Notes under the pieces: model-generated
Told to the model about the DNA's origin: nothing
Seen by the model: the letters and a program-made list of their open reading frames with translations, nothing else
Database searches by the model: none
Program-made: the position numbers and the translations under genes
Assembly (NCBI RefSeq): GCF_003416885.1
Contig: NZ_QVPD01000012.1
Location: 1 to 64,000 of the forward strand
DNA: 64,000 nucleotides
Reading direction: 5' to 3'
From: Cognatiluteimonas weifangensis
GTDB lineage: Bacteria > Pseudomonadota > Gammaproteobacteria > Xanthomonadales > Xanthomonadaceae
Shown here: in pieces, positions 1 to 55,870 of the stretch
Position numbering within the stretch: the first letter of the stretch is position 1
Layout of the letters: each line of letters starts with the position of its first letter

Positions 1-20
1 GGGGTGCGGAGAGTGGACCA

Positions 21-480
21 TGGAGGGTCCACGACCCGACTTAAAGACAGGAGGTCGTCAGGAGGGCGCAGCACCCCCAGTCCGCCGGGCGGCGACTCCG
101 TCCGAAGCCGGTCTCACAAGAGCAGCCACGACTTGCGTCGGGCCAGACATGGCCCACGACCCGACTTAAAGACAGGAGGTCGTCAGGAGGGCGCCGCAGT
201 ACCCCCAGCCCGCCGGGCGGCGACTCCGTCCGAAGCCGATCTCACGAACGCAAGCCACCGATGGTCCACGACTCGACTTGAAAACAGGAGGTCGTCAGGA
301 GGGCGCAGCACCCCCAGCCTGCCGGGCGGCGACTCCCTCCGAAGCCGATCTCCAGAGGCAGACCCTGACGGCCCGTCAGGGCATGCATGGCCTGCGGCCC
401 GATTGGAGGACAGGACGTCGTAAGGAGAGCGCACCACCCTCAGCCCGCCGGGCGACGCCTGCGTACGAAGCCGGTCCCCG
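21..480 (+). repeat. Interspersed repeat family A, four tandem copies
   Basis: Four copies of a unit of about 90 bp lie at roughly 21-115, 141-243, 259-353 and 385-480, about 120 bp apart. The shared core runs ACTTAAAGACAGGAGGTCGT, then GGAGGGCGCAGCACCCCCAG, CCGCCGGGCGGCGAC and TCCGTCCGAAGCCG. The first three copies are close to identical and the fourth is degenerate. GCCCGCCGGGCGGC inside the unit can fold as a hairpin. The same unit recurs inverted near 18.66 kb and again at 55.7 kb. The copies read through as long open frames, but these have no protein-like features. This looks like a non-coding dispersed repeat with no transposase of its own in view. Confidence 0.85.
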
Positions 481-606
481 GAGGTCGGGACGAACTCTTG
501 TGCAAGGAAGTTGCGGGAAAACCGCGCCCATGACCCTCGGCAGTTGCCCATGCGACCCGGCTGTGGCTACTGTGCATGGTTTGTTTCCAGCCTTCGGGGT
601 AATGCC

Positions 607-2787
607 ATGCGCATCCGTTTCCTGGCCGCGGCGATCGCTGCGACCGCGTTCGCCACTGCGGCCCACGCCGACGAGGGCATGTGGCAACCCAGCCAGATGC
701 CGCAGCTGGCCGCGCAGCTCAAGGCGCGCGGGCTGCAGCTGGATCCGGCGTCGCTGTCCGACCTCGCCGGCAAGCCGCTGGACGCGGTGATCAGCCTCGG
801 CGGCTGCACCGCCAGCTTCGTCTCCCCGCAGGGCCTGGTGGTCACCAACCACCACTGCGGCTACGGCGCCATCCAGTACAACTCCACGCCCGAGCGCGAC
901 CTGCTGGCCACCGGTTTCGTCGCCGGCAGCTTCGCCGAGGAACTCCCGGCCGACCCCAACGCGCGCGTCTACGTCACCCAGGACATTCGCGACGTCACCG
1001 CGCAGATCAACGCAGGCCTGACCGCCGACATGGACGGCAAGGCCCGCTTCGACGCGATCGATGCGCGCAGCAAGGCGCTGGTGGCCGAGTGCGAACAGCC
1101 CGGCGGCCTGCGCTGCAACGTCTACAACTTCCACGGCGGCCTGCAGTTCTCGCTGATCCGGCAGCTGGAGATCAAGGACGTGCGCCTGGTGTACGCGCCG
1201 CCGGAAGCGATCGGCAAGTTCGGCGGCGACGTCGACAACTTCGAATGGCCGCGCCACACCGGCGACTGGAGCTTCCTGCGCGCCTACGTCGGCAGGGACG
1301 GCAAGCCGGCCGCGTATTCGAAGGACAACGTCCCGTACCAGCCCAGGAGCTGGCTGACGGTGTCGCAGGAACCGCTCCACGCTGGCGACTACGTGATGGT
1401 CACCGGCTACCCGGGGTCCACCAGCCGCTACCGCCTGGCCGACGAAGTGCAGCAGGCGATCCAGTGGCGCTATCCGACCCTGGTGCAGTACTTCAAGGAT
1501 TACCTCGCCACCATCGAGCGCACCACCGCCGGCGACAAGGCCGCCGAGCTCAAGTACGCCTCGACCGTGGCCGGCATCAACAACGCGCTCAAGCTCTACC
1601 AGGGCCAGCTCGACGGCTTCGCCAAGATGCAGGACCCGGTCGGCATGAAGCGTGCGCAGGAAGCCGCGCTCAAGGCCTGGCTTGGCGAGCGTGGCGCGCA
1701 GGGGGCGGCGCAGGCCCGCGCGCTCGCCGCGCTGGAGCAGGAACTGGCGGCCGACAACCGGACCCGCGAGCGCGAGCAGTGGTTCGGCGCCGCGGTCGGC
1801 GGCGGCCTGACCGGCACCGCGGTGCGCCTGTACCGCAACGCGATCGAACAGGCCAAGCCCGATGCCGAGCGCGAAGCCGGTTACCAGGACCGCGACGCGC
1901 CGCGCATCGAAGGCGGCCTGCGCGCGCTCGACAAGCGCTACGACGCCCGGGTCGACCAGGCGCTGATGGCATTGCGCCTGCAGCGCTACGCCAGCCAGGT
2001 GCCCGCCGACCAGCGGGTGCCGGAACTCGACGCCTGGCTCGGCATCGGCGCCGGCGACCAGGCGATTGCGGATCTCGACGCCAGGCTCGATGCACTGTAT
2101 GCCGGTTCCCAGCTGGGCAACGTCGATGCGCGCCTGCAGTGGCTGAAGGCCGACCAGGCCGCGATCGAGGCTTCGACCGACCCGGCGCTGCAGTTCGCGG
2201 TGCAGGTGATGCCGGCGTTGCTGCGTTTCGAACAGGACGGCAAGGCGCGCAGCGGCCGCATTTCCGCGCTGCGTCCGCAGTACATGCAGGCGATGATCGA
2301 TTTCAACCAGGCGCAGGGCAAGCCGGTGTACCCGGACGCCAACAGCTCGCTGCGCATCACCTTCGGCACCGTGCGCGGGTATTCGCCGCGCGACGGTGTG
2401 GAGATGACGCCGTTCACCACCCTGGCCGGGATCGTCGCCAAGACCACCGGCGAGGAACCGTTCGTGTCGCCCAAGGCCGAGCTCGACGCGATCGCGCAGG
2501 GCCAGGGCAGCCAGTACCGGATGCCGGAACTCGGCGACGTGCCGGTCAACTTCCTCAGCGACGTCGACACCACCGGCGGCAACTCCGGTTCGCCGACGCT
2601 GAACGCGAAGGGAGAACTCGTCGGGCTGCTGTTCGACGGCAACTACGAGAGCCTCAGCGCCGACTGGATCTTCAATCCCGCGCTGACCCGCTCGATCCAC
2701 GTCGACACCCGCTACATGCGCTGGGTGATGGACGAAGTCGACCACGCCGAGCGCCTGCTCGCGGAAATGGGGCTGTCGCATGACTGA
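607..2787 (+). CDS. S46 family dipeptidyl-peptidase (DPP7-like)
   Basis: Exported exopeptidase of the S46 family, which removes dipeptides from the N-terminus of oligopeptides in the periplasm. The ATG at 607 is preferred because it opens a clean Sec signal peptide (cleavage after AAHA, residues 18-21). An upstream in-frame ATG at 511 only adds a non-signal extension. The mature protein begins DEGMW, typical of the family. The catalytic triad is visible: His in VVTNHHCGYG (about residue 83), Asp in DNFEWPRH and Ser660 in GGNSGSP. The residue 18 places after the Ser, which sets specificity in this family, is Gly (FDG), as in DPP7 enzymes that prefer hydrophobic P1 residues. Its 726 aa match the usual family length. 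It overlaps a paralogue by 8 bp, so the two are probably translationally coupled. Confidence 0.93.
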   Translation: MRIRFLAAAIAATAFATAAHADEGMWQPSQMPQLAAQLKARGLQLDPASLSDLAGKPLDAVISLGGCTASFVSPQGLVVTNHHCGYGAIQYNSTPERDLLATGFVAGSFAEELPADPNARVYVTQDIRDVTAQINAGLTADMDGKARFDAIDARSKALVAECEQPGGLRCNVYNFHGGLQFSLIRQLEIKDVRLVYAPPEAIGKFGGDVDNFEWPRHTGDWSFLRAYVGRDGKPAAYSKDNVPYQPRSWLTVSQEPLHAGDYVMVTGYPGSTSRYRLADEVQQAIQWRYPTLVQYFKDYLATIERTTAGDKAAELKYASTVAGINNALKLYQGQLDGFAKMQDPVGMKRAQEAALKAWLGERGAQGAAQARALAALEQELAADNRTREREQWFGAAVGGGLTGTAVRLYRNAIEQAKPDAEREAGYQDRDAPRIEGGLRALDKRYDARVDQALMALRLQRYASQVPADQRVPELDAWLGIGAGDQAIADLDARLDALYAGSQLGNVDARLQWLKADQAAIEASTDPALQFAVQVMPALLRFEQDGKARSGRISALRPQYMQAMIDFNQAQGKPVYPDANSSLRITFGTVRGYSPRDGVEMTPFTTLAGIVAKTTGEEPFVSPKAELDAIAQGQGSQYRMPELGDVPVNFLSDVDTTGGNSGSPTLNAKGELVGLLFDGNYESLSADWIFNPALTRSIHVDTRYMRWVMDEVDHAERLLAEMGLSHD

Positions 2788-4957
2788 GCAGAAGGCATTG
2801 TCGAAATCCTTGCGCGTGGCCGTGCTCGCGGCCGCCGCCAGCACCGGGTTCGCGGCGCAGGCCGACGAGGGCATGTGGATGCCGTCGCAGTTGCCGGGCA
2901 TCGCCGGGCAGCTCAGGCAGGCCGGTTTCCAGGGCGATCCGGCGAGCCTGGCCGACCTCACCCGGCCGCCGATGAGCGCGGTGGTGTCGCTGGGCGGCTG
3001 CACCGCGAGCTTCGTTTCGCCCCGGGGCCTGGTGGTGACCAACCACCACTGCGCGATGGGCGCGATCCAGCTCAATTCCACCCCGCAGAACAACCTGATC
3101 GCCAACGGCTTCAACGCCGCCACCCAGGCGCAGGAAGTCTCGGCCGGGCCGGCGGCGCGGGTGTTCGTCACCACCGCCTTCGAGCGCATCACCGACCGCA
3201 TCCTCGCCGATGCGCGCGGCAAGACCGGGCGTGCCTACTACGACGTCGTGGACGCGGCCAGCAAGGCCGTGGTCGCCGAGTGCGAGCAGGAGGCCGGCTA
3301 CCGCTGCAGCGTCGCCAACATGTACTACGGCACCGACTTCTACCTGGTCAGGCAGCTGGAGCTGAAGGACATCCGGCTGGTGTACGCGCCGCCGGAAGCG
3401 ATCGGCAATTACGGCGACGAGATCGACAACTTCATGTGGCCGCGGCATAGCGGCGACTTCGCCTTCTACCGTGCCTACGTCGGCAAGGACGGCAAGCCGG
3501 CCGCGTTCTCGGCCGACAATGTGCCGTACCAGCCGCCGGCGTACCTGACGGTATCCACCGATCCGGTCGCCGAAGGCGATTTCGCCATGCTCGCCGGCTA
3601 TCCGGGCACCACCTACCGGCACCGCATGGCGATGGAATTCGCCGACCAGGTGCAGGCGGGACTGCCGTGGCGGGTGGACGTGCTCGGCGCGCTGATCGGC
3701 ACGATCGAGAGCGCCAGCGCCGCCAGCCAGGACGCGCAGGTGCGCTATGCCTCGCAGCTGGCGGGCCTGAAGAACGGGCTCAAGCGCGCCCAGGGCGAAC
3801 TCGACGGCCTGCGTCGCAGCGAGGCGGTACGGGTGCGGCGCGAAGACGAGGCCGCGATGCTGGCGTGGCTGGCGCGGCAACCCGACGCCGCCGCGACGCG
3901 CGCGGACATCGAAGCCGCGCAGGCGCTGATCGCGCAGTCGCACGCCAGCCGCGAGCGCGACCAGCTGTTCGGCCTGATGCGCTCGCAGACGCAGCTGCTC
4001 AAGAGCGCCTACCAGCTGCAGCGACTGGCGGCCGAACGCGGCAAGCCGGATCCGCAGCGCGAGCGCGGTTACCAGCAGCGCGACGAGGCGCTGATCGAAG
4101 GCGCGCTCAAGCAGGTGCAGCGTCGCTACGACCCAATGGTGGAGAAGGCGCTGCTGGCGGAACTGCTGCGCCGCTACCGCGCCTTGCCGGCCAACCAGCG
4201 CATCGCCGAGGTCGATGCGGTCTTCGGTCGCGACGCTGCCGCCACGCAGGCCGCACTCGACACGCTGTACGCGCAGACCCGGCTGGGCGAGGAGGCCGAA
4301 CGCCTGCGCCTGCTGGCCGCGGCGCCGGCCGATGTCGCGGCCGCCGCCGACCCGCTGCTGCGCGCCGCCGCGCAACTGCTGCCGGCGGTGCTGCGCGAGG
4401 AGGACGCCGACAAGGCCCGCGGCGGCGACCTGCTGCGCCTGCGGCCGGCCTACATGCGCGCGCTGATCGGCTACCGCCAGTCGCAGGGCAGGGCGGTGTA
4501 TCCGGACGCCAATTCCACACTGCGCGTGAGCTACGGCAAGGTCAGCGCCCTGGAGCCGCGCGACGGCGTGCATTACGTGCCGCTGACCACGGTGGCGGGC
4601 ATCCTCGAGAAGCACACCGGGCAGGCGCCGTTCGACGCGCCCGCGCCGCTGCGCGAGGCGATCGCCAAGGGCGATTTCGGCAGCACCGCCGACCCGGTGC
4701 TGAAGACGCAGACGGTCGACTTCATGACCAACCTGGACACCACCGGCGGCAACTCCGGCTCGCCGGTGCTGGATGCGAGGGGTCGGCTGATCGGCCTGAA
4801 CTTCGACAGCAACTGGGAAGCGGTCAGTGCCAGCTGGATGTACGACCCGCGCTACAAGCGCGCGATCCATGTCGACGTGCGCTACCTGCGCTGGCTGCTG
4901 GCCAAGGTCTATCCGGCGCCGCACCTGCTGCGGGAGATGAACCTGCCGGCGGAGTGA
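2780..4957 (+). CDS. S46 family dipeptidyl-peptidase, second paralogue
   Basis: Second S46 peptidase of 725 aa, starting 8 bp before the stop of the first. It has a signal peptide (about residues 1-28, ending FAAQA) and the same DEGMW mature start. The catalytic His lies in VVTNHHCAMG, the Asp in EIDNFMWPRH, and Ser659 in GGNSGSP. The specificity position 18 residues after the Ser is Ser677 (NFDSNWE), where DPP11-type enzymes cutting after Asp/Glu have Arg and DPP7 has Gly. The two neighbours therefore probably differ in substrate preference and together would clip a broader set of peptides. No promoter is seen between them. The function of the family is known; the specificity split is inference. 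Confidence 0.92.
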   Translation: MTEQKALSKSLRVAVLAAAASTGFAAQADEGMWMPSQLPGIAGQLRQAGFQGDPASLADLTRPPMSAVVSLGGCTASFVSPRGLVVTNHHCAMGAIQLNSTPQNNLIANGFNAATQAQEVSAGPAARVFVTTAFERITDRILADARGKTGRAYYDVVDAASKAVVAECEQEAGYRCSVANMYYGTDFYLVRQLELKDIRLVYAPPEAIGNYGDEIDNFMWPRHSGDFAFYRAYVGKDGKPAAFSADNVPYQPPAYLTVSTDPVAEGDFAMLAGYPGTTYRHRMAMEFADQVQAGLPWRVDVLGALIGTIESASAASQDAQVRYASQLAGLKNGLKRAQGELDGLRRSEAVRVRREDEAAMLAWLARQPDAAATRADIEAAQALIAQSHASRERDQLFGLMRSQTQLLKSAYQLQRLAAERGKPDPQRERGYQQRDEALIEGALKQVQRRYDPMVEKALLAELLRRYRALPANQRIAEVDAVFGRDAAATQAALDTLYAQTRLGEEAERLRLLAAAPADVAAAADPLLRAAAQLLPAVLREEDADKARGGDLLRLRPAYMRALIGYRQSQGRAVYPDANSTLRVSYGKVSALEPRDGVHYVPLTTVAGILEKHTGQAPFDAPAPLREAIAKGDFGSTADPVLKTQTVDFMTNLDTTGGNSGSPVLDARGRLIGLNFDSNWEAVSASWMYDPRYKRAIHVDVRYLRWLLAKVYPAPHLLREMNLPAE

Positions 4958-18552: not shown

Positions 18553-18593
18553 TTCCATGCGGCGCACGGGATCGGTCCCGGTAGGAGTCGTCG

Positions 18594-18620
18594 TCGTCCC
18601 CGCGAAGGCGGGGATCCAGC
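18594..18620 (+). repeat. Short palindromic repeat (GTCATCCCCGCGAAAGCGGGGAT type)
   Basis: TCCCCGCGAAGGCGGGGAT forms a hairpin (CCCCGC / GCGGGG) and is a widespread intergenic repeat type in proteobacteria. A second copy is at 22495-22523. Confidence 0.7.
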
Positions 18621-18654
18621 GCCTTTACGTCGGGCGCGTCCATCCGTGACCTGA

Positions 18655-18815
18655 CCTCGGGAGATCGGCTTCGGACAGAGTCGCCGTCCGGTGGGCTGGG
18701 GGTGCTGCGCCCTCCTGACGACCTCCTGTCTTTAAGTCGGGTCGTGGGCCATCCATGGCCCACTCTCCGCACCCCCAGCCCGCCGGGCGGCGACTTGGCG
18801 AGATTGGAGGTCATC
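18655..18815 (-). repeat. Family A repeat, inverted copy plus a partial copy
   Basis: 18655-18762 is the reverse complement of the unit seen at 21-480, with core GACGACCTCCTGTCTTTAAG on this strand. A 3' fragment in forward orientation follows at about 18772-18805 (CACCCCCAGCCCGCCGGGCG). Confidence 0.85.
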
Positions 18816-18852
18816 GCTTCGTGGGGCTTTTCTACAAGCGCCAACTCACTGC

Positions 18853-19330
18853 CCGGAAGCCGGTGGCCCGGCCTGTGCGGGACCGTCGGCGGCATGGATG
18901 CCGCCGAGGAGCCTACAGGGACGTATTCACGGCGTGTCCCGCACAGGCCGGGCCACCGGCTTCCCCCCACGGAAGCTTCCGCGCTTGAAGGAAGATCTAC
19001 ACGGCGTGTCCCGCACAGGCCGGGCCGCCGGCTTCCCCCACGGAAGCTTCCGCGCTTGAAGGGAAATCTACACGGCGAGTCCCGCACAGGCCGGGCTACC
19101 GGCTTCCTCCGCAGAAGCTTCCGCGCTTGATGGAGATGTTTTCGCGCCGTGTCCCGTCCCGCATAGGCCGGGCCGCCGGCTACCCGCAGAGGTCCCGCGC
19201 TTGGGAGACGAAGGAATGCTGCCGCCGAGCTTCCAGGGGGCGGATTCATGACGTGTCCCGCAATGTCACCGCGTGTCCCGCACAGGCCGGGCCACTGGCT
19301 TCCCCCAGAGGTCCCCGCGCCGGGGGCTTG
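18853..19330. repeat. REPIN-like element and REP cluster (family B)
   Basis: 18855-18965 has two inverted copies of GAAGCCGGTGGCCCGGCCTG around a spacer that includes GGCATGGATGCC, the layout of a REPIN. Further single copies of CCCGCACAGGCCGGGC, each followed by GGCTTCC and then CGGAAGCTTCCGCGCTTGA, occur near 19010, 19082, 19150 and 19280. A near-identical but inverted REPIN lies at about 55490-55598. The 881 bp between merC and the bTHX gene hold only these repeats. No RAYT-type transposase gene was recognised in the window. Confidence 0.8.
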
Positions 19331-22395: not shown

Positions 22396-22494
22396 GCGCG
22401 GCGTCGGCTGCGAATGCGGCGGTTACCGGTGGCGCGCGAAGCGCCATCTCCGCCACGGTGAACACCCTACCGGCCTGGCAGGTCCGAATATTGT

Positions 22495-22523
22495 CGTCAT
22501 CCCCGCGAAAGCGGGGATCCAGC
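22495..22523 (+). repeat. Short palindromic repeat, second copy
   Basis: CGTCATCCCCGCGAAAGCGG followed by GGATCCAGC, the same type as at 18594. It lies in the 182-bp gap between the convergent hutF and the PEP-mutase-like gene, where its hairpin could help end both transcripts. Confidence 0.75.
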
Positions 22524-22577
22524 GGCTTGAAGCGGGGTGACTTCAAGCGCGCGGCAGCAACGCCGGCCGACGCACAC

Positions 22578-41174: not shown

Positions 41175-41463
41175 CCGCACCCCTCACCCTGCTGCGCGCC
41201 GCGCAGCGGTCCCTCTCCCCGCAAGCGGGGCGAGGGGGGCGGCAGCGCGCTCGGCGCAGCGGCTCTTCCTCGTCGAAGAGGGGAATGGTCGCAGCGCGCC
41301 CGGCGCAGCGGCCCTCTCGCGTCGAAGAGGGGATGGTCGCAGTGGCGCTCGGCGCAGCGGCCCTCTCTCGTCGAAGAGGGGGATGGTCGCAGCGGCGCTC
41401 GGCGCAGCGGCCCTCTCCCCGCTTGCGGGGAGAGGGTGTCCGCAGGACGGGTGAGGGGTGCGG
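41175..41463. repeat. 289-bp element with 15-bp terminal inverted repeats and an internal tandem array
   Basis: CCGCACCCCTCACCC (41175-41189) and GGGTGAGGGGTGCGG (41449-41463) are perfect inverted ends. Inside lie about four units of roughly 60 bp built from GGCGCAGCGGCCCTCTC, GTCGAAGAGG and GGATGGTCGCAG, bounded by CCCTCTCCCCGC hairpin halves. It fills the gap between lemA and the S4 gene and has no coding content. Confidence 0.8.
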
Positions 41464-55292: not shown

Positions 55293-55487
55293 CCGCGCGC
55301 CCGGGTGCCGAGCGCATGGCGCGCGGCGAGTTGTGGTCTCTCGTGATCATCCGGAATGATCCCGGGAAGGCCGTGCAGGTGCAGAGCCCCGGATGGGCCA
55401 GCGCGGAACCCTCTGCAGGGAAGCCGGCGGCCTGGGCTGTGCGGGGTGCGCCGTGAAAACATACTTTCAAGCGCGGAAATTCTGCGG

Positions 55488-55600
55488 AAGAAGCCGGTGG
55501 CCCGGCCTGTGCGGGACACGCCGTGAATACGTCCCTGTAGGCTCCTCGGCGGCATCCATGCCGCCGACGGTCCCGCACAGGCCGGGCCACCGGCTTCCGG
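55488..55600. repeat. REPIN-like element (family B), second copy
   Basis: Inverted arms GCCGGTGGCCCGGCCTGTGC and GCACAGGCCGGGCCACCGGC surround a spacer with GGCATCCATGCC. It is the reverse complement of the element at 18855-18965, almost base for base. A single related arm lies just upstream near 55425-55460. Confidence 0.85.
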
Positions 55601-55674
55601 GCAAGTGAGTCGGCGTGCGTGGGAACAACCAGCCGAAGCCGATTTCCCGAGTCCAGGCCATGACTCGACGTCAG

Positions 55675-55870
55675 GCCAGGTATCACCCGCGCCCAGACTA
55701 AAAGACAGGAGGTCGTCAGGAGGGCGCAGCACCCCCGGCCCGCCGGGCGGCGACTCCGTCCGAAGCCGATTTTCCAAGCGCAAGCCATCGATGGCTTGCG
55801 CCCCAACTTGAAGACAGGATGTCGTCAAGAGGGCGCAGCACCGCCAATCTCGCGTAGCGAACAGCGTGGG
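55675..55870 (+). repeat. Family A repeat, one full and one partial copy
   Basis: 55690-55775 repeats the unit of 21-480 (AAAGACAGGAGGTCGTCAGG, GGAGGGCGCAGCACCCC, TCCGTCCGAAGCCG). 55800-55850 is a second, degenerate copy cut off after the GCAGCACC block. The 589 bp from the GFA stop to the next gene hold only family A and B repeats. Confidence 0.85.

Follow-up and report, generated by a model that had tools for sequence, protein, structure and literature searches.

A dispersed YPAL-related element of Cognatiluteimonas weifangensis with candidate RsmA/CsrA-binding hairpins 3' of genes

Introduction

The palindromic repeat YPAL, or RU-2, is an intergenic palindrome for which filled and empty sites have both been described, and its Yersinia pestis unit has been printed as 168 nt (PMC2759123). 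In the accessible part of another report YPAL is described as mobile, with target duplications that vary from 3 to 26 bp and a preference for dyad-symmetric targets (PMC2229807). A related entry, Rfam RF02770 Ysr224 (Yersinia sRNA 224), is, as far as the accessible portions of the sources go, temperature-responsive (PMC9029176) and represented by multi-copy transcripts in Y. ruckeri (PMC12112432). By sequence likeness, the class of hairpin head treated here is one that has already been named, as YPAL/RU-2 and as Ysr224. The accessible parts of the YPAL literature yielded no mention of a link between YPAL/RU-2 and CsrA or RsmA. REP and REPIN palindromes with their RAYT transposases are also intergenic, form inverted pairs and lie mostly 3' of genes, according to the accessible text of a survey that describes in addition the self-complementary TIR repeats of S. 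maltophilia TIRYT ORF 1152 (PMC3733652), a close known system that we compared by description only.

Results

We analysed a stretch of 64,000 nt of C. weifangensis (the window; positions 1 to 64,000 of contig NZ_QVPD01000012.1, assembly GCF_003416885.1), together with the genome it comes from (G000; 2.76 Mb in 45 contigs). A sequence-only reading of the window had described a dispersed, strongly conserved 90-bp repeat, family A, in seven copies, and we recovered all seven at the sites it named: 18-115, 143-240, 255-352 and 381-478 on the plus strand, 18655-18759 on the minus strand, and 55676-55773 and 55785-55846 on the plus strand, the last being partial. The copies are dispersed and conserved as described, and they do lie in gaps with no convincing gene at all three window sites (outside the window, gene-free flanks were judged by a coding heuristic only). 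The 90-bp unit is a real repeat but does not stand alone; it is the right part of a hairpin of ~115 bp with 26-bp arms, which we call hp2. Nor could the separation of family A from a second family, B, be upheld, as both are halves of one composite element. The reading had noted A beside B at two sites, and the association turned out to be stronger than that, with at least one B unit on the left in 58 of the 59 arrays of G000 that have more than 500 bp upstream (the exception is L099); B is missing at the window start because the contig end cuts the element there.

In full, the element consists of tandem B units, a hairpin hp1 with 28-bp arms, a spacer of ~60 bp, hp2, and tandem A units, with median unit spacings of 69 bp (B) and 113 bp (A). 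The two hairpins, of ~108-115 bp, are mirror images of each other. An alignment of 51 of 61 lead copies (the other 10 were too near a contig end) showed conservation extending far upstream from family A into family B. The tail units are halves: A tails have no left arm and B tails end in the hp1 head (by eye), and as half-hairpins they probably cannot fold as hp1 and hp2 do. Very probably, A and B form one element that is related through its head to YPAL/Ysr224. Its parts in the window are as follows.

1-97, plus strand: lead A hairpin hp2 of the first array; left arm lost to the contig start, the contig (C4) beginning inside the arm
~143-240, 255-352 and 381-478, plus strand: three tail A units of the first array; right halves only, the outermost most diverged
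18680-18794, minus strand: A hairpin hp2 of the second array; 26-bp arms at 18680-18705 and 18769-18794
18795-18855, minus strand: spacer between hp2 and hp1, second array
18856-18963, minus strand: B hairpin hp1 of the second array; 28-bp arms at 18856-18883 and 18936-18963 flanking a YPAL/Ysr224-type head
18964-19310, minus strand: tail B units of the second array, ~70-bp period
55412-55480, plus strand: tail B unit of the third array
55490-55597, plus strand: B hairpin hp1 of the third array; 28-bp arms at 55490-55517 and 55570-55597, 27-nt head at 55518-55544
55598-55675, plus strand: damaged centre of the third array; spacer partly kept, hp2 left arm and cap absent
55676-55850, plus strand: two A units of the third array, 55676-55773 plus a partial one at 55785-55850

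Conserved RNA folding had been suggested as a check, and window 18641-18830 does fold as RNA (z = -5.7); folded as DNA, 18641-18990 gave z = -10.4. The hp2 at 18680-18794 carries an apical CATGGATG loop and a GAC-AGGAG-GTC loop, and the adjoining hp1 has CANGGANG loops on the opposite (plus) strand, at 18893 and 18916. A search of the third array's centre (55598-55675) for an hp2 cap found none. Elsewhere in the window we observed two adjacent paralogous ORFs of 758 and 725 aa directly after the first array (511-4957), which we take to be peptidase-like, another dispersed repeat, GTCGTCGTCCCCGCGAAGGCGGGGATCCAGCG, in two copies of 84% identity (18590-18634 and 22493-22537), and a 49-50 bp repeat in four tandem copies (41247-41444). 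A fused form, in which the left half of hp1 is joined to the right half of hp2 via the apical palindrome and the centre is lost, was seen in the congener G003 (L129, ~1025-1150).

The element is abundant in its own genome. Allowing up to 3 mismatches, the 24-nt core GACAGGAGGTCGTCAGGAGGGCGC occurs at 153 places in G000, 145 of which are covered by the loci analysed, and the same pattern read backwards occurs at none. When the lead unit was used as a DNA query against G000, 120 matches were obtained, with 40 of the 99 candidate places scored. G000 has 72 hp1 tips, of which 70 are identical over 34 nt. Contig ends fall within 100 bp of 16 of these tips, and the palindromes therefore probably interrupt the assembly. 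Among the other 59 of 60 genomes searched for the core, only G002, of the same genus, has it (14 sites), and the exact core had no match in a collection of genome contigs. Two further congeners, G003 and G004, carry their own two-hairpin elements (by eye), in which hp1 keeps the same head on different arms. In G004, REP-like sequences (GTAGGAGCGCGCC or similar) lie just upstream of the two-hairpin element at L130, L131, L132 and L133 (by eye).

The head is far more widely distributed. A 40-nt head pattern matched 43 of 247 genomes of the family (G000 included) in 15 of 54 genera, and the reversed pattern matched none of the same 247. Of 121 genomes of the order, 33 have the head according to a covariance model, again counting G000 and some genomes that had supplied sequences for the model. 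The exact 27-mer ACGCCGTRAAYMCRTCCMTGKRGGCTC was present in at least 120 stretches of GTDB genomes, which are not a random sample, and in one stretch among viral contigs. Among 80 record titles, those that name a genus are from gammaproteobacteria (Yersinia, Sodalis, Rheinheimera, Marinobacter, Microbulbifer, Alteromonas, Cellvibrio, Stenotrophomonas, Xanthomonas and others), and two say only 'Proteobacteria'. By eye, our own heads fit one 27-nt pattern that also fits RU-2 as printed, and the printed RU-2 holds the exact reverse complement of a family head, ACGCCGTAAATACATCCATGTAGGCTC (PMC2759123). The likeness stops at the head: the printed ~168-bp unit is a single hairpin whose stem is unrelated to that of G000, whereas the G000 element has two mirror hairpins, a spacer and polar arrays of decaying half-elements. 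The Rfam Ysr224 model likewise recognises the head on a hairpin, scoring 126.5 bits in Yersinia similis (L285), 36.5 bits in G003 (L123) and only 23.8 bits for a G000 hp1 (L054) against a gathering cut-off of 70; every scanned locus except that of Y. similis was below the cut-off, and an Rfam scan of the window at gathering gave no match. In two genera a single head hairpin stands before apparently the same gene, kbl-like by eye (L165 in g26 and L173 in g65), and the arms of this locus-conserved copy have diverged yet are still complementary. Heads are also translated in spurious-looking frames (HAVNPSLGAR..) at L253, L273 and other GTDB loci, including Xanthomonas, and are a likely source of false gene calls.

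The stems around this constant head are free in sequence and constrained in pairing. Of 118 distinct cases, 93 have arms that pair at no fewer than 13 of 18 positions, whereas arms exchanged between loci do so in 1.5% (5 of 128 occurrences, with short flanks, were left out). The stems themselves are unrelated, left arms from separate loci being identical at a median of 6 of 18 bases. The 25 heads that pair at fewer than 13 positions in this ungapped test include the Yersinia-arm heads L285 and L337, which have imperfect stems. In an alignment of 23 heads, hand-picked from 52, the covariation score was 0.650 against 0.131 in shuffles, of which 0 of 500 reached it, and slid registers gave at most 0.131; the outer pairs changed on both sides in 15 of 15. 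Compensatory double changes were also in excess among young copies, with 5 observed against 0.22 expected for hp2 (59 elements), 3 against 0.10 for hp1 (48 elements) and 9 against 0.33 for the hp1 of G002 (8 elements), an excess to which arm-to-arm copying as well as selection may have contributed.

If the palindrome were used as double-stranded DNA, G-T and A-C mispairs would be expected equally on both strands. Among 55 distinct outer stems (here and for the apical loops below, heads with at least 13 of 18 arm matches), the strand reading ACGCCGT has 6 G-U and 38 A-C mispairs (p = 9e-7), or 3 and 24 when counted by locus (p = 5e-5), and this excess of A-C indicates that the other strand is the one that folds. 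The same asymmetry is seen within G000, with 3 G-U against 28 A-C in hp1 and 26 against 4 in hp2, opposite signs that fit the mirror-image arrangement of the hairpins. One inherited variant supplies 15 of the hp1 counts; by kind of site the direction is kept (hp1, 2 G-U and 9 A-C; hp2, 10 G-U and 4 A-C). We consider it highly probable that one strand is used in folded form. The Ysr224 model in Rfam is on the strand opposite to that indicated by the wobble pairs and the GGA loops.

The loops of the folded strand are constant in a particular way. Of 94 heads, 92 have GGA in the apical loop (all but L283 and L331) and 78 have A-N-GGA; the other loop bases vary (UGGA 33, GGGA 21, AUGGAC 6, AGGAC 6, AGGA 5, others). 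When six positions of the second loop were left free, TCC, which is GGA on the folded strand, stood there in 148 of 150 among the matches listed (exceptions, G186:C29:251482 and G077:C1:1586095), and in 118 of 121 heads both variable pairs of this loop's short stem are complementary. The minimum-free-energy fold forms the second loop hairpin in some heads only, and not in the window's own hp1. At its apex hp2 has CAUGGAUG or CAUGGAGG in most leads, plus a GAC-AGGAN-GUC hairpin, and hp2-type hairpins in other genera (L166, L170) have stems that are changed but paired (by eye). In the accessible text of two reports the RsmE/CsrA consensus is A/U-CANGGANG-U/A (PMC6849547, PMC5864733), and our hairpin loops match it, with the GGA in the loop. 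Across 59 arrays of G000, CANGGANG occurs in hp1 0 times on the plus strand and 117 times on the minus strand, and in hp2 58 times on the plus strand and 0 times on the minus strand, at densities of 13.2 (hp1) and 8.1 (hp2) per kb, compared with 0.14-0.45 for the flanks and 0.2 for the remainder of the window. Wobble bias and loop motif are two signals that agree on the strand. Conservation in the A tails is slightly higher at the GGA positions (0.913) than in the rest of the same 34-nt stretch (0.842). The CsrA family (PF02599) was found in 10 of 10 genomes searched, with two copies in G000, the second a weaker match; CsrA is common in gammaproteobacteria, and its presence is therefore weak evidence. 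The divergent second gene (C44:23094-23231) lies ~2.3 kb from an hp1 tip at C44:20788.

The arrays are strictly polar. We located ~70 through the core and defined them by the hp2 cap, a procedure that partly misses old arrays without a centre; 67 have the cap and a lead, and 59 of these make up the set with more than 500 bp upstream (arrays without the cap, namely W55, L339, L341, L343, L344 and several at contig ends, are outside it). Within 900 bp, the 59 arrays have 0 A units left of the centre and 0 B units right of it, and among units that span at least 40 model positions 0 are inverted. The centre is the most conserved part and the units decay outward: by rank from the centre, A units average 79.8, 62.5, 55.6 and 53.1 bits (67 arrays) and B units 56.2, 36.1, 35.2 and 38.1 bits (59 arrays), and of 119 neighbouring A pairs and 91 B pairs in the same arrays, the inner unit outscores the outer one in 104 and 77, respectively. 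With the lead unit excluded the tendency is weaker (A, 44 of 58; B, 28 of 41).

How the arrays grew can be approached through the best matches of their tails, partial units excluded. The best match of most tails is a unit at another locus (60 of 74 A tails, 47 of 56 B tails), and this suggests growth mainly by arrivals with some local duplication, as the same-array best matches (14 of 74 and 9 of 56) are above every label shuffle (means 1.7% and 2.2%, highest 9.5% and 10.7%, for A and B). We do not favour pure local tandem duplication as the main process, since only this minority of tails matches its own array best; old local duplications may nevertheless have diverged beyond recognition. Simple nested insertion, one B plus one A per event, was rejected as the whole story, because A and B numbers per array are uncorrelated (rho 0.05, p 0.69) and one insertion therefore does not simply add one of each. 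Lead units score almost the same in all 67 arrays (79.8 bits, sd 2.4), a uniformity that suggests insertion of newcomers into older copies, or overwriting of these. The layered growth that we infer from these patterns would be a mechanism of this kind.

Comparison with congeners showed both filled and empty orthologous sites at the two sites examined, as for YPAL/RU-2. The 18.6-kb site is empty in five (G001, G003, G004, G006 and G007), with 22-92 bp between aligned flanks against ~870 bp in the window; G008 has ~270 bp between the flanks, and G002 has a solo hp2 in the opposite direction. The distance between the flanks of the 55.5-kb site is 25 bp in G002, 6 bp in G004 and 1.5 kb in G003. 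The intergenic parts of the empty sites are so diverged that target duplications could not be discerned. With flanking genes assigned by a GC3 heuristic, 32 of the 59 arrays lie between convergent genes, 27 between co-directional genes and none between divergent ones. The left ends of the arrays at L007, L017, L021 and L082 come directly after a U-tract terminator (by eye).

Discussion

We read these repeats as a dispersed YPAL-related element that presents candidate RsmA/CsrA-binding RNA hairpins 3' of genes, and give this reading a probability of roughly 0.57. Because the hairpins mirror each other, hp1 would fold on the minus strand of the element and hp2 on the plus strand, and each folded strand would form a long stem of free sequence with small loops of CANGGANG or CAGGAN, the RsmA/CsrA recognition sequence. 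Transcripts of flanking genes would read through the element at their 3' side and expose the putative RsmA-binding loops, which might be a decoy, or a signal that acts locally on 3' ends or stability. The element would spread by insertion, later copies landing in or overwriting the centre of older ones, so that old B halves would come to lie farther out to the left and old A halves farther out to the right. A preference for dyad targets like that of YPAL would explain such self-insertion into old palindromes. Several observations weigh against this reading: Rfam places Ysr224 on the other strand and its model gives hp1 of G000 only 23.8 bits, the second loop hairpin is absent from some minimum-free-energy folds, 25 of 118 heads fall below 13 paired positions, and tail units probably do not fold like hp1 and hp2. 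Like the decoy RNAs CsrB, RsmY and RsmZ, the element has multiple hairpins whose GGA loops fit the RsmE/CsrA consensus. Those RNAs are single genes under Gac/UvrY control, whereas in G000 the hairpins belong to a dispersed repeat at 3' ends, their stems are very long and their binding is putative.

The main rival to RsmA/CsrA is a transposase that reads folded DNA. Here hp1 and hp2 would be the ends of a non-autonomous transposon whose loops are read by a single-strand DNA transposase, as in IS200/IS605 or RAYT, and RNA would play no role; the loop constraint could then serve a DNA-processing enzyme acting on folded single strands. Mirror-image ends, spread and empty sites all agree with this, as do the mobility, variable target duplications and dyad-symmetric targets reported for YPAL in the accessible part of PMC2229807, and even the strand asymmetry fits, as G-T pairs are tolerated in single-stranded DNA hairpins too. 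The enzyme itself is what we did not find beside the heads. Y1_Tnp, the RAYT domain, had no match at E <= 0.001 in G000, G001, G003 or G255; the other 13 of 17 genomes searched gave 34 matches, and at the 30 loci examined there were 0 heads within ~1.5 kb, so that we rejected a RAYT/IS200-type origin. REPs moreover are 20-40 bp long with a GTAG or CGTC tag in the accessible text of PMC3733652, in contrast to the 26-28 bp arms and constant 27-nt head seen here. In looking for an autonomous parent we clustered 3442 stop-to-stop frames of at least 100 residues around 120 heads, and no transposase was recognised by eye in the 40 clusters examined (clusters above 75% identity were left out); those that could be named by eye were of housekeeping type, e.g., ABC ATPase, response regulator, ribosomal and sigma-factor proteins, and several were spurious frames. 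At L286 two inverted heads 1.6 kb apart were considered as a parent and dismissed, as they enclose ordinary-looking genes. The possibility left by the sequence-only reading, that the copies are remnants of a known insertion sequence or a degenerate gene family, gained no support from the same material, the 30 Y1 loci having no head within ~1.5 kb and the 40 clusters no transposase recognised by eye. Reading by a transposase does not in itself predict A-N-GGA in both loops with the other bases free, and we regard this explanation as unlikely, though it is the leading alternative.

We consider it less likely still that the hairpins are palindromes of transcript ends that protect or terminate flanking transcripts, the loop sequence being incidental. 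Such a role was proposed for YPAL, in the accessible part of PMC2229807, and it suits the position 3' of at least one gene, with 0 of 59 arrays between divergent genes, and the several left ends that directly follow a U-tract terminator; it has no need, however, of a constant 27-nt head with GGA loops, and in our element it is the stem that is free and the head that is constant. The sequence-only reading had raised an association with chromosome architecture proteins, and ~70 arrays dispersed over 2.76 Mb are what a double-stranded site for gyrase, IHF or a nucleoid protein might look like. Nothing was found for that role. Double-stranded DNA has no preferred strand, yet the wobble pairs are strongly strand-biased and of opposite sign in hp1 and hp2, which argues for a folded single strand, and the stem sequence is free between species; a site of this kind seems very improbable.

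More tentatively, and with slightly less than even odds, we would extend the RsmA/CsrA reading to a gammaproteobacteria-wide class of dispersed decoy hairpins that would include YPAL and Ysr224, having a constant two-loop head with CANGGANG and a stem that is free because it is re-copied arm to arm; in this Lysobacteraceae genome the ~70 self-overwriting arrays would amount to well over 100, perhaps several hundred, putative global-regulator sites. The features that look new are the two-hairpin form, the polarity of the arrays, the occurrence of the head in many gammaproteobacteria on free stems, the test for the folded strand and the proposed tie to RsmA/CsrA: we found no earlier account of them in literature searched largely without full texts, nor of these features in a search of the Xanthomonas literature with CATCCATGG. 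Literature matches listed for 10-11-letter strings of the head were unrelated by title, and a query joining RsmA/CsrA with YPAL, Ysr224, REP and sponge gave no match at 4 of 6 terms.

If the loops do bind RsmA/CsrA, the 'junk' palindromes of many gammaproteobacteria would be a distributed layer of the Csr/Rsm network. That would explain why the anonymous Yersinia sRNA Ysr224 is both multi-copy and widespread, and it would clearly exemplify repeats whose spread goes together with titration of a global regulator. In addition, each polar array may preserve the order in which copies arrived at its site, so that the turnover of a small mobile element could be followed layer by layer, as in strata.
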